IMG/VR virus record: IMGVR_UViG_3300007777_000008
Location: 1 to 27,924 of that record
Length of the DNA stretch: 27,924 nt
Direction: 5' to 3' (one strand)
DNA from: a virus
Shown here: positions 8,594 to 12,117 of the stretch, piece after piece
How the letters are laid out: each line of letters begins with the position of its first letter
Numbering within the stretch: position 1 is the stretch's first letter
Program-made: the position numbers and the translations under genes
The notes under the pieces: generated by a model
Databases searched by the model: none
Told to the model about the DNA's origin: nothing
What the model saw: only the letters and a program-made list of their open reading frames with translations

Positions 8594-9529
8594 CTACCAA
8601 GCCATAGCCAAAGGCTTGTTGTTTGGGTTATATCTCAAAGACATACTATCATCGTCTGTCCACTGCAAGGACTCTGGTTCATACCAGAAGCCCCATGTAC
8701 CTAACCAATCCCCGTTACGTTGTTTAACAACACGCATCCAAGCATCTGGTTCATCCCAAGCTGTGGGTTCATTGTTCTGTTTGTCTCGTTGCTTCTGTTC
8801 ATTCAAGTGAATGATTATGATATTGAATGCTAGGTTAGAGATAGCTGAGCTACCAGCAATATCAAACTTGTCAGGAAAGAAGTTCTTAATCCCGGCTGGA
8901 GCTTTACGGCAATGAGTCACAAGGTGTATGTGAACATTGTGTTGTTTAGCTTTCGTAGTTAGTGAACCGATAAACTGTTTCTGACTCTCGTTATCATCTT
9001 GATTAACACCACACATCATTAACGAATCAATCATTATGTGCTTAACGCCTTTCTGTTCTGCAGCCCAATCAATCATTGCATAAATATCATGTGTTTCAAC
9101 AGTGTCAGTAGCATCGTAAATCCATAGACGTAAGTCTGTTTCATCTTTGAATCTATCGTAGAAGCTAGGGTCAGGCTTTGAATGACCATAGGCTTGTCTA
9201 CACATACGAGCAACTGTTATCTCACCTTTCATTTCCATCGAAGCTATCAATACGGATGTTGTCTTTGTTAGCCACAATGCAACTTGACCCATGACCATAG
9301 ACTTACCGTTACCGTTTACACCTGACCAAATAGTTACTTCACCCTCTCTAAATCTAAACTTATCGTGTGTTCGTTCCCAAGGCATCTTGTCACCTGTGTG
9401 ACTGATACCCTTCTCAAGTAACACTTGCGCTCTAGCTAAGAAGTCAGAAGCTGGTTTGATTAACTGTCTCTGCTTCTGTGCCTGATAGTTCTTGAATTCC
9501 TCTAGTTTAATATTGTTCATTCTACTCAC
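8594..9529 (-). CDS. DnaB-type replicative helicase, C-terminal ATPase only
   Basis: A 311-aa RecA-fold ATPase like the DnaB C-terminal domain, which drives fork unwinding as a hexamer. Walker A is GVNGNGKS (residues 70-77), the probable catalytic Glu is in ASMEM (E99), Walker B is HIMIDSL (D168), a THCRK sensor loop is at 205-209, and DIAGSSAISNLA (223-234) is a DnaB-like motif. The first about 45 residues are only a short helical linker. The primase-interacting N-terminal domain is missing and seems to be a separate gene at 10197-10514. There is no Toprim or primase domain. A GTG at 9529 follows GGGGGAAA closely. The ATG at 9520 is an equally likely start. Confidence 0.85.
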   Translation of the reverse strand: MSRMNNIKLEEFKNYQAQKQRQLIKPASDFLARAQVLLEKGISHTGDKMPWERTHDKFRFREGEVTIWSGVNGNGKSMVMGQVALWLTKTTSVLIASMEMKGEITVARMCRQAYGHSKPDPSFYDRFKDETDLRLWIYDATDTVETHDIYAMIDWAAEQKGVKHIMIDSLMMCGVNQDDNESQKQFIGSLTTKAKQHNVHIHLVTHCRKAPAGIKNFFPDKFDIAGSSAISNLAFNIIIIHLNEQKQRDKQNNEPTAWDEPDAWMRVVKQRNGDWLGTWGFWYEPESLQWTDDDSMSLRYNPNNKPLAMAW

Positions 9530-9595
9530 TTTCCCCCAAATAATAATTATCCATGATAGGTTATGGTTCTTTATAACAACCTACTTACATTCCCA

Positions 9596-10204
9596 CTATT
9601 GCCATTTAACGCCACCGTAGTAGCCTTTCTTTTCTTGAGCCAAACCATCGTCTAGTTCATCATTCCAACGCTCACCATTTAGATAGGTCATTGGGTTTGG
9701 TATGTATTGCTTCTCAGTTTCTACGAAACGAACCTTGCAATCTTCAGTAGCAAGTTTGGCATCAACCTTCCCAAGCTTACCAAATGCAACCATAGACAAC
9801 TTCTTGTTTATCTTCTTAGGATAATTATCCCAAAACTTTTCAAATGCTATATTAACTTTACCTTTATCCTTATCCTTATCCTTATCATTATCATTATCAT
9901 TATCATTGTTACCAAGCCCCTTACTAACCCCCTTGACAACCCCCTTACTAACCCCCTTGCTAAGGGTGTCTTCATAGACTAACTTTTGCTTATAGCAGTA
10001 GCCATCAATAGATGATTGAAGAGAGTGTTTAATTGATAACCAAAGCATTGATAACATCTTGTCTTTAAACTCAACATCGTTTATGTGTTGCTCATAAAAC
10101 ATCACACTGAAAATAGCATTGTTAAATTCATAGAACTGTTTTTGGTCTAACTCTTTTGAAACTTCATAGAAGCTCGCATAATATTTCATGACTTTTTTAT
10201 TCAT
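9596..10204 (-). CDS. replication organiser, lambda O-like helicase loader/initiator
   Basis: A 202-aa protein. Residues 1-75 form a helical domain resembling the DUF6291 family (KYYASFYEVSKELDQKQFYE). Residues 82-116 are a low-complexity linker of KGV repeats and Asn/Asp/Lys pairs. Residues 119-183 carry the typical replication-protein C-terminal pattern FEKFWDNYPKKINKK, then YIPNPMTYLNGERWNDE. Such proteins bind the origin and bring in the DnaB helicase. The gene lies between the two DnaB-half genes. The ATG at 10204 overlaps the upstream stop by eight bases and is preferred over a GTG at 10234. The linker DNA has origin-like repeats, as in lambda O. Confidence 0.75.
   Translation of the reverse strand: MNKKVMKYYASFYEVSKELDQKQFYEFNNAIFSVMFYEQHINDVEFKDKMLSMLWLSIKHSLQSSIDGYCYKQKLVYEDTLSKGVSKGVVKGVSKGLGNNDNDNDNDKDKDKDKGKVNIAFEKFWDNYPKKINKKLSMVAFGKLGKVDAKLATEDCKVRFVETEKQYIPNPMTYLNGERWNDELDDGLAQEKKGYYGGVKWQ
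9864..9905 (-). repeat. seven tandem hexamers, AT-rich, in replication gene
   Basis: On the plus strand TTATCC three times (9864-9881) then TTATCA four times (9882-9905), coding alternating Asp with Asn or Lys. The block adjoins four G-rich 12-bp repeats. AT-rich arrays beside initiator-binding repeats often act as the melting site of an origin. Confidence 0.85.
9915..9962 (-). repeat. four 12-bp G-rich direct repeats with G-quadruplex motif
   Basis: Minus strand units AAGGGGGTTAGT, AAGGGGGTTGTC, AAGGGGGTTAGT and AAGGGGCTTGGT, coding KG(V/L) repeats. The C-runs on the plus strand are at 9917-9920, 9928-9932, 9940-9944 and 9952-9956, each separated by seven bases. The minus strand therefore meets the classical G-quadruplex rule (four runs of at least three Gs, loops of seven or fewer). 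They resemble iterons placed in an initiator gene. Binding by the organiser is inferred. Confidence 0.85.
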
Positions 10205-10514
10205 TGTTAAGCGCTCTCTCAAGTATCCAGTCACACTTAATCTCTGTGTTAGTAGTTATACAGTTGTCCATAATAGATAGCATCTCGTTATTAAGGTGGA
10301 TATTAGACGATTCTAGCAACTTATCTTGATACAGCCTACCAAACTGTTGATTAGCAATCATCAGCTTGTATATGACCCTATGAATCTCAAACCTCAAGTC
10401 TGTTGTTGCGAGTCCTTTAATTAGAGCATCTCGCATATCCCCGTTAATTAACATTGTTCCTATTACATCTTGCTCGTTCCACTGTTGTATCTCATTCATG
10501 CGAATGGTATTCAT
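10197..10514 (-). CDS. stand-alone DnaB N-terminal domain-like protein
   Basis: A 105-aa protein with an AAAGGAAAATTACC ribosome site. EQDVIGTMLINGDMRDAL (residues 14-31) followed by FEIHRVIYKLM (42-52) matches the first helices of the DnaB N-terminal domain, which assembles the hexamer collar and contacts DnaG primase. There is no ATPase part. It is followed by the organiser gene with an eight-base overlap and then by the DnaB ATPase gene. This fits a helicase divided over two polypeptides, or a decoy or adaptor that binds host primase. The match is by pattern only and has not been tested against profiles. Confidence 0.6.
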   Translation of the reverse strand: MNTIRMNEIQQWNEQDVIGTMLINGDMRDALIKGLATTDLRFEIHRVIYKLMIANQQFGRLYQDKLLESSNIHLNNEMLSIMDNCITTNTEIKCDWILERALNNE

Positions 10515-10647
10515 GGTAATTTTCCTTTGTTTTGTTTAATTTGGTGGTTCTTCGCAGTAGTTATCTTTATTAACACCCAAAACCGTAGTGTTGGATAATT
10601 AGTTTAAGTCTGCATTATCAGTCGGACTTTCCCCTTGCCCTCTACTC

Positions 10648-11094
10648 TTAGCTTGCTCGCATAAGCAACGACCAATCAAATTCCTTTGAATACATCATTC
10701 GGTCTTTATAGTAATTCTTAACCTCGCGTGCTTGGCTCTCAATAGGCACATAGCCATTGATACCCTCAGGTCGTTTACCTTGCCCAGGCTTCTTTGCTAA
10801 CTTCTCAACGTCTGTTATGCCTTTAGCAAGTCTTGCGTTCATAGTTGAGTGGTTAATATTAAAGCGTTCAGATATTTGCCTTGCGCTTAGCTTAGTTCCA
10901 TCAGAAAGTTCATACTGCTTGCTGTTATAAACAGAATGGCGTGAAGTTTCTTTTTTTCTTAAAACAACCTCAGCCGTTTGAGATGTTTCTAATCTATACC
11001 TAGCCGCGGCATGGCACATTTTAAGTTCAGCTCCCAAGGTCATGGCTGTCCATACAGTGCCATCGTCAAGAGTGTATTCTTTAGGTGTTATCAT
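10648..11094 (-). CDS. protein with two HTH-like repeats, putative DNA-binding
   Basis: A 148-aa basic protein with a GGGGGAGAG ribosome site. It contains two related segments: YTLDDGTVWTAMTLGAEL (residues 7-24) and YELSDGTKLSARQISERFNI (61-80), each continuing into a helix (NHSTMNARLAKGITDVEKL after the second). The second segment fits a helix-turn-helix. The duplication suggests one protein binding two half-sites. It is followed by a gap of 133 bases before the DnaB N-domain gene. It may be an operon regulator or an origin-binding factor. No named family recognised. Confidence 0.5.
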   Translation of the reverse strand: MITPKEYTLDDGTVWTAMTLGAELKMCHAAARYRLETSQTAEVVLRKKETSRHSVYNSKQYELSDGTKLSARQISERFNINHSTMNARLAKGITDVEKLAKKPGQGKRPEGINGYVPIESQAREVKNYYKDRMMYSKEFDWSLLMRAS

Positions 11095-11112
11095 TTCTCT
11101 CCCCCTTAGCCG

Positions 11113-11364
11113 TTAAAATGGAATCGGGTCATCTTGAAACTCAGAAGCTGGCGCTCTAGCTTCTTCTACCTTAGCTTCTTTAGGTTGAACTGAGAATGAT
11201 AGGGCTGGTGCTTTAGGGTTTGCATCAGCTTTACGCTTCCAAGCAGATACCCAAAACTCTTTGCCCTCAACATTAATAGAACCTGTAAAGTCTGGATGGT
11301 TAGGTGTTGTCTGTTTGTCGTTTTTCCAAATAGAACCACGGTTTGTATTGTCATAATCTGACAT
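11113..11364 (-). CDS. mini single-stranded DNA-binding protein
   Basis: An 83-aa protein with an AAGGAGTAACAACT ribosome site. Residues 9-60 have beta-rich sequence (NRGSIWKND, FTGSINVEGKEFWVSAWKRK, ALSFSVQPKE) compatible with a reduced OB fold. The last residues are DDPIPF, almost the DDDIPF tip of bacterial SSB that docks partners such as RecO, RecG and PriA. Cellular SSB is about 170-180 aa, so this is a minimal form. It lies between Erf and the helicase genes. Its 165-base leader contains three inverted repeats, which suggests control of its translation or transcription. SSB function is inferred from the tail and context. Confidence 0.6.
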   Translation of the reverse strand: MSDYDNTNRGSIWKNDKQTTPNHPDFTGSINVEGKEFWVSAWKRKADANPKAPALSFSVQPKEAKVEEARAPASEFQDDPIPF

Positions 11365-11384
11365 AGTTGTTACTCCTTATGAGT

Positions 11385-11448
11385 GAGCATTATTGCTCGG
11401 TTTAAAATTAAGTGTCACATTTACGTTGTGACGAACGTACTATTCGTC
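11385..11448 (-). promoter_or_regulatory. three-hairpin leader of the mini-SSB gene
   Basis: Three perfect inverted repeats lie in the leader. GACGAA/TTCGTC is at 11430-11435 and 11443-11448 (loop 7). GTCACA/TGTGAC is at 11414-11419 and 11427-11432 (loop 7). GAGCA/TGCTC is at 11385-11389 and 11394-11398 (loop 4). The first two share three bases and so exclude each other. The gap between the Erf and SSB genes (11365-11529) has no gene. A cis-acting RNA switch or a protein-binding leader is possible. Confidence 0.5.
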
Positions 11449-11529
11449 TTAACTAAGGACGGAGGGGAAAGGCATGAAACCAAAAAACTCCACCCACTAG
11501 CCGTAGGTTGTAATCCTCTCTAGTTCTTG

Positions 11530-12117
11530 TTACATTCCCTCGTCATCGTCTATTCCAAATAGCATAATGTACCTATCTATTACTTGATTGATAGGGGGGT
11601 TGTTGCTTTCAGCTTTATCGAATATTCTCTTTGCTAATGCTGTGTTGCCGTCTTCAAATGCTTTGTCGAGCATCTTAATAGCTTTCTCAATGTCAGCTTT
11701 AGGCGTGTAACTTAGCTTAGTGTTGTCTAAAGAGTCTGCATCAGGACTGTTTTCACTAATTGCAAACAATCCGTTCATTGCGTATTTACGGGCGTATGAG
11801 CTAGCCGAACCGGTACATTGACTTGCATCCATACCTTTACGCATCTCTTCCCAAGCAAATGCAGTAGTACATATTGAGTCTGAGCCATCACCAAGGCAAA
11901 CAGTTGCCTTAACGTAATTACGACCGCCAACATTCTCGATTGTATCGGACATAGTGACTGAAGTCTGAGTAAGGGATAGTAAAGGCTTTAACGCATCTAA
12001 AATCCCCTCTAAATTACGGTAAGCATATTTACCGAATGAGTTCTTTTTGTCTTTCTTAGCATCAAGTGATGTTTGCAATTGAATTAGCTTATCGCATAAT
12101 TTCGTGGTTTTATCCAT
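11530..12117 (-). CDS. erf: ERF-family single-strand annealing protein
   Basis: A 195-aa protein, similar in size to P22 Erf (about 204). Erf proteins bind single-stranded DNA, anneal complementary strands and support recombination and genome circularisation. The N-terminal FGKYAYRNLEGILDALKPLL (residues 28-47) and the later GSASSYARKYAMNGLFAI (about 102-119) are the family's core motifs. The C-terminal about 60 residues are helical and acidic. The ribosome site is TAGGAGATACAC, provided by the end of the upstream zinc-ribbon gene. Neighbouring SSB and RusA genes complete a recombination set. An acidic end (GIDDDEGM) could contact other replication proteins. Confidence 0.9.
   Translation of the reverse strand: MDKTTKLCDKLIQLQTSLDAKKDKKNSFGKYAYRNLEGILDALKPLLSLTQTSVTMSDTIENVGGRNYVKATVCLGDGSDSICTTAFAWEEMRKGMDASQCTGSASSYARKYAMNGLFAISENSPDADSLDNTKLSYTPKADIEKAIKMLDKAFEDGNTALAKRIFDKAESNNPPINQVIDRYIMLFGIDDDEGM

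Follow-up and report, generated by a model that had tools for sequence, protein, structure and literature searches.

Iterons conserved as DNA within a phage initiator gene as a very probable replication origin

The layout in which a replication origin lies inside the gene of its own initiator is already known. In phage lambda, as in the origins of Stx phages, iterons in the middle of gene O are followed by an AT-rich tract that is required for unwinding, and additional iterons just lengthen the protein (PMC7466680). In SPP1, oriL lies in gene 38, where direct repeats and an AT-rich unwinding element are found within the gene that encodes the origin-binding protein (PMC6316719). The locus described here, in a virus record of 27,924 bp analysed over its whole length (the window), resembles both systems in having iterons and an adjacent unstable tract within the initiator's own gene. 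It differs from the lambda origin in that its units are spaced at 12 bp, have the core AAGGGG[G/C]TT, and shift strand and frame between relatives, and from SPP1 in its initiator, host, and helicase/loader genes; the likeness to SPP1 is one of layout, not of a base-by-base repeat comparison.

The initiator gene (9596–10234, minus strand) probably starts at the ATG at 10204, giving 202 amino acids; a GTG at 10234 would give 212. A preliminary description of this DNA called the gene lambda O-like, which holds for the gene layout but not for the protein: no sequence relation to O was found in Pfam or PHROG, the whole protein had no Pfam match, its C-terminal half matched other PHROG families (phrog_270 and phrog_9474, replication initiation protein), and neither sequence nor fold comparison with solved structures yielded a useful match. 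An AF2 model of the N-terminal domain (DUF6291-like; 9974–10204, minus strand), built from a shallow alignment, was all-helical with a pLDDT of about 84 and corresponded to no solved DNA-binding fold. The DUF6291 label (PF19808) comes by way of two distant homologues, L102 and L105, which are 61% identical to each other and whose N-domains matched the family weakly, at 22.8 and 24.2 bits, both under the curated cut-off of 27.2; the N-domain of L105 is homologous to that of the window (hhalign, E 1.8e-7), and the window protein itself had no match to DUF6291 at E≤1. A search of phage records with the L105 N-domain returned no matches.

The genes around the initiator belong to replication and recombination and include SSB-like, ERF, and RusA genes. 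A DnaB-C/RecA-like helicase gene (8594–9529, minus strand; DnaB_C 1.1e-10) adjoins the initiator, and a small DnaB-N-like gene (10197–10514, minus strand; PF00772, 5.5e-4, under the curated cut-off) overlaps its start. The initiator is flanked by these two genes as though one DnaB gene were split, an order that is also present in L002 and is absent in L098.

Within the linker between the two domains, four 12-bp repeats lie on the minus strand at 9917–9964, located as the preliminary description stated. In coding order they are CTTAGCAAGGGG (9953–9964), GTTAGTAAGGGG (9941–9952), GTTGTCAAGGGG (9929–9940), and again GTTAGTAAGGGG (9917–9928), each composed of the core AAGGGG[G/C]TT and a 3-bp spacer, and TRF reports the region as a period-12 repeat of 4.6 copies at 9909–9963. 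The pattern STTNNYAAGGGG, composed after the repeats had been seen, has these four in-register minus-strand matches and no other match in the window, compared with 0.09 matches expected in shuffled sequence. Comparison of the relatives' linkers revealed a conserved array end, CTTGGTAACAAT (9905–9916, minus strand), whose pattern STT-N-S-TAACAA is present in 9/9 genes with a complete linker.

Next to the array, the seven plus-strand hexamers previously noted at 9864–9905 were confirmed as three copies of TTATCC and then four of TTATCA (TRF: 9864–9907, period 6, 7.3 copies). This tract is the candidate melting site: within the replication module (8594–12117), the 45-bp windows of lowest stability start at 9847–9864, in and beside the hexamers, and over the whole window the tract belongs to the 1.1% of lowest stability. 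Among relatives in the window family, the coding strand of the tract is rich in purines (0.68–0.87), and the tract is not in every case AT-rich. The hexamers contain TTATCC, though no DnaA box (TTWTNCACA) occurs near them, and DnaA boxes were rejected as an origin element. Features of the tract also lend themselves to another reading, in which a flexible protein linker has expanded and its DNA repetition is merely a by-product of slippage. The tract varies by whole hexamers, being two longer in the window than in a 98%-identical relative, and codes for low-complexity charged dipeptides, and slippage is able to make the copies within one array alike. Slippage homogenises inside a lineage, and the preliminary description had asked whether relatives keep the DNA itself or just its composition.

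Viral contigs were searched first with the whole protein and subsequently with just the N-domain. Relatives found in this way were L001 (98%), L002, L093/L258, L094/L259, and L095/L260, together with copies, and later the N-domain relatives L265, L267, and L269; L264, L266, and L268 (the same as L117, L125, and L128) were first found by the DNA repeat pattern and then confirmed as N-domain relatives. The N-domain of Nitratiruptor phage NrS-4 is a 31% relative of that of the window and a 40% relative of that of L128.

First, in seven genes (the window and six relatives), the KG[V/L] units are encoded by AAG GGG GTT or AAG GGG CTT in 21/21 cases, while the codon preceding each unit varies (S, T, D, V, A, N, or Y). 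GGG accounts for 35/610 glycine codons in the window (5.7%); counting only the genes on its minus strand, the share is 14%. The N-domain is scrambled at synonymous sites, with as few as 17/47 codons the same at identical amino acids (window versus L260), and slippage would not preserve one codon choice across lineages scrambled to this extent. Second, in L265, L266, and L267 the unit lies on the opposite strand, at an equal distance from the start of the N-domain, where the other genes have AAGGGGSTT. There it reads AACCCCCTT or AAGCCCCTT and codes for N/K-P-L (for example, the peptide PLSNPLDNPL); the reverse complement of AACCCCCTT is AAGGGGGTT. Third, the frame changes in distant homologues: the unit is read as GGYQGGCQ in L105, as YQPP from the other strand in L102, and as KGGRQGATEGG in NrS-4. 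Finally, NrS-4 has additional non-coding copies in the gap directly upstream of its start codon.

The DNA was thus kept, both as invariant codons and through changes of strand and frame that bring different amino acids. Since the unit persists despite changes of strand, frame, and amino acid, a protein linker cannot account for the repeats, and slippage would neither keep a DNA unit through such changes nor place copies ahead of a start codon. By this pattern of conservation, the 12-bp repeats are DNA elements rather than an expanded linker. The earlier caveat that they might be just that is ruled out for the 12-bp units by the relatives' DNA, linker expansion being refuted by codon invariance, by strand and frame change, and by the copies before the start codon; for the block as a whole we regard the linker reading as very improbable. 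The stretch is a clear instance of two superposed codes, a DNA repeat that is kept and a protein that tolerates KGV, NPL, YQPP, or GGYQ at that place.

The presence of an array goes together with the type of N-domain that the gene encodes. Arrays were found in 10/11 genes with the window-type N-domain versus 1/57 genes that share the C-domain but have a different N-domain (Fisher 4e-10), and in 7/8 versus 1/57 when the three relatives found by the repeat pattern (L264, L266, and L268) were dropped. The exception without an array is L269, in which the start of the N-domain is present and the gene enters an HNH-like segment. The C-domains differ among the relatives: the FWxxYPxK domain of the window (coded at 9599–9847, minus strand) is shared with L002, L128 has Phg_2220_C, L094 and L095 have a C-domain unlike that of the window in which a resemblance to DnaT was seen by eye, and others occur elsewhere. 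In this set of genes, the distribution of arrays shows the repeats tracking the N-domain and not the freely swapped C-domain, which points to the N-domain as the putative DNA-binding half of the initiator. That an N-domain keeps its iterons while C-domains are exchanged suggests recombination at the origin as the way in which initiators are rebuilt. In L269, at 2001–2420, the N-domain runs into HNH-endonuclease-like sequence, which may be a homing element that has entered the gene.

The locus combines tandem direct repeats conserved as DNA, an adjacent unstable element, and co-segregation of the repeats with the N-domain half of the initiator. The reading as a lambda-like intragenic origin is strongly supported by this comparison of relatives, and the repeats are very probably the replication origin of the phage. 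We put a probability of roughly 0.87 on an intragenic iteron origin that would work in three steps, modelled by analogy on lambda (PMC7466680) and SPP1 (PMC6316719). The initiator N-domain would bind the four 12-bp iterons within its own gene, the bound array would open the adjacent unstable, purine-rich hexamer tract, and the C-terminal domain would then recruit the phage's own DnaB-like helicase. The replication and recombination genes around the locus and the frequency of tandem repeats in other initiator linkers also favour this reading. On the other side stand the N-domain model, which corresponds to no solved DNA-binding fold, the tract of the relatives, which is not in every case AT-rich, and L269, which has no array. 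What the comparison shows is that the repeats are kept as DNA and go with the N-domain; binding of the iterons by that domain, melting at the hexamers, helicase loading through contact with the FWxxYPxK domain, and origin activity of the repeat block are the parts of this scheme that we infer.

An array bound by the initiator could instead serve the initiator as an operator for repressing its own gene. Rep-type initiators frequently autoregulate, and L145, L149, and L150 have non-coding copies upstream of the start codon. In the window, however, as in its close relatives, the array is intragenic, lying about 240 nt past the start codon and beside the part of the module with the lowest stability, and a search with the STTNNYAAGGGG pattern found no copies upstream of the initiator start codon in the window; an operator in place of an origin is quite improbable. 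A third reading gives function to the minus-strand G-quadruplex motif that the preliminary description had pointed out. The motif is literally present, and its runs (G5-N7-G5-N7-G5-N7-G4) fit the usual definition, but four G runs are not conserved: L002 and L259 have only three, L264 has two, and in L265–L267 the G runs are replaced by C runs. What is conserved is the period and the core, not a four-run quadruplex, and a functional element of this kind is extremely improbable. The GC skew of the window changes course near 7 kb and again near 14 kb, at the points where the genes reverse orientation; because the turns follow gene direction, skew is silent on an origin at 9.9 kb and was rejected as origin evidence.

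A second family of initiators, of the MRDY...FW type (phrog_25210/phrog_1701), from phages of E. coli, Klebsiella, and Acinetobacter, resembles the window in its linker, which holds 2–3 copies of AAGGGGCTT or close variants, on either strand, followed by a hexamer tract of the CAGGAA type. These initiator genes are followed by genes for a DnaC-like loader or for primase/helicase. Unlike the window, they have an 11-bp spacing and an unrelated N-domain: hhalign found no sequence relation between the two N-domains, and the predicted fold is winged-helix-like in the MRDY type and all-helical in the window. Comparison of the MRDY domain with solved structures gave weak winged-helix matches only, none significant. 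Because 11 cannot be divided by three, every copy falls in a different frame, which is a further argument against linker expansion. In the Acinetobacter phages of this family, non-coding copies are also found upstream of the start codon. L144–L151 and L152–L231 have a second AAGGGG pair at 11-bp spacing, at about nt 184–204 of the initiator gene in the N-domain code, where the peptide EGASKGL is modelled as a helix of the winged-helix-like fold.

Repeats of this general kind extend beyond these two families. Among 60 distinct initiator linkers picked by C-domain alone, 43 contained tandem repeats (period 9–24, p≤0.02), compared with 2/68 control coding segments, and many of the periods were 10–12 or 21–23. 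Initiator genes thus seem, as a rule, to contain iterons, and these come in several sequences, of which AAGGGGSTT is one type. The linker of L008 (before 4001), which has another N-domain, carries repeats containing CCCCTT at 22-bp spacing, about two helical turns. The reversed control pattern TTSGGGGAA also matches initiator genes (L234, L238, L246, and the L239 group), so enrichment of AAGGGGSTT in initiators is by itself no proof of one shared recognition sequence. The TTSGGGGAA-type units occur in genes for DnaD-like or other replication-initiation proteins (L234 3939–5099, L238 2094–3182, L246 37–816, and L239 1787–3895). A genome scan with the three-copy pattern returned mostly unrelated tandem repeats, with 1/12 clearly an initiator (L132, Contendobacter).

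We propose tentatively, at somewhat less than even odds, that one orientation- and frame-independent core, AAGGGG[C/G]TT, is common to at least two sequence-unrelated N-domain families, and hold with the same reserve that it spans phages infecting Campylobacterota (Nitratiruptor), Enterobacteria, Acinetobacter, and uncultured hosts. If true, a shared core would mean either a very old initiator–origin pair or convergence, more than once, on a single DNA site, and in the latter case what is read may be a host factor or DNA shape (a G run between AA and TT, one helical turn).

The literature searched, which covered few subscription papers, contained no description of these repeats and no mention of DUF6291. 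The iteron, its independence of strand and frame, and its occurrence with two N-domain families that are unrelated to each other are apparently undescribed in the searchable literature. Such a DNA signature could allow the replication origins of many uncultured phages to be read in initiators that databases call hypothetical or unknown. At the left end of the record, the window also carries a nine-base tandem repeat, GGTGCTACA, at 1–78.
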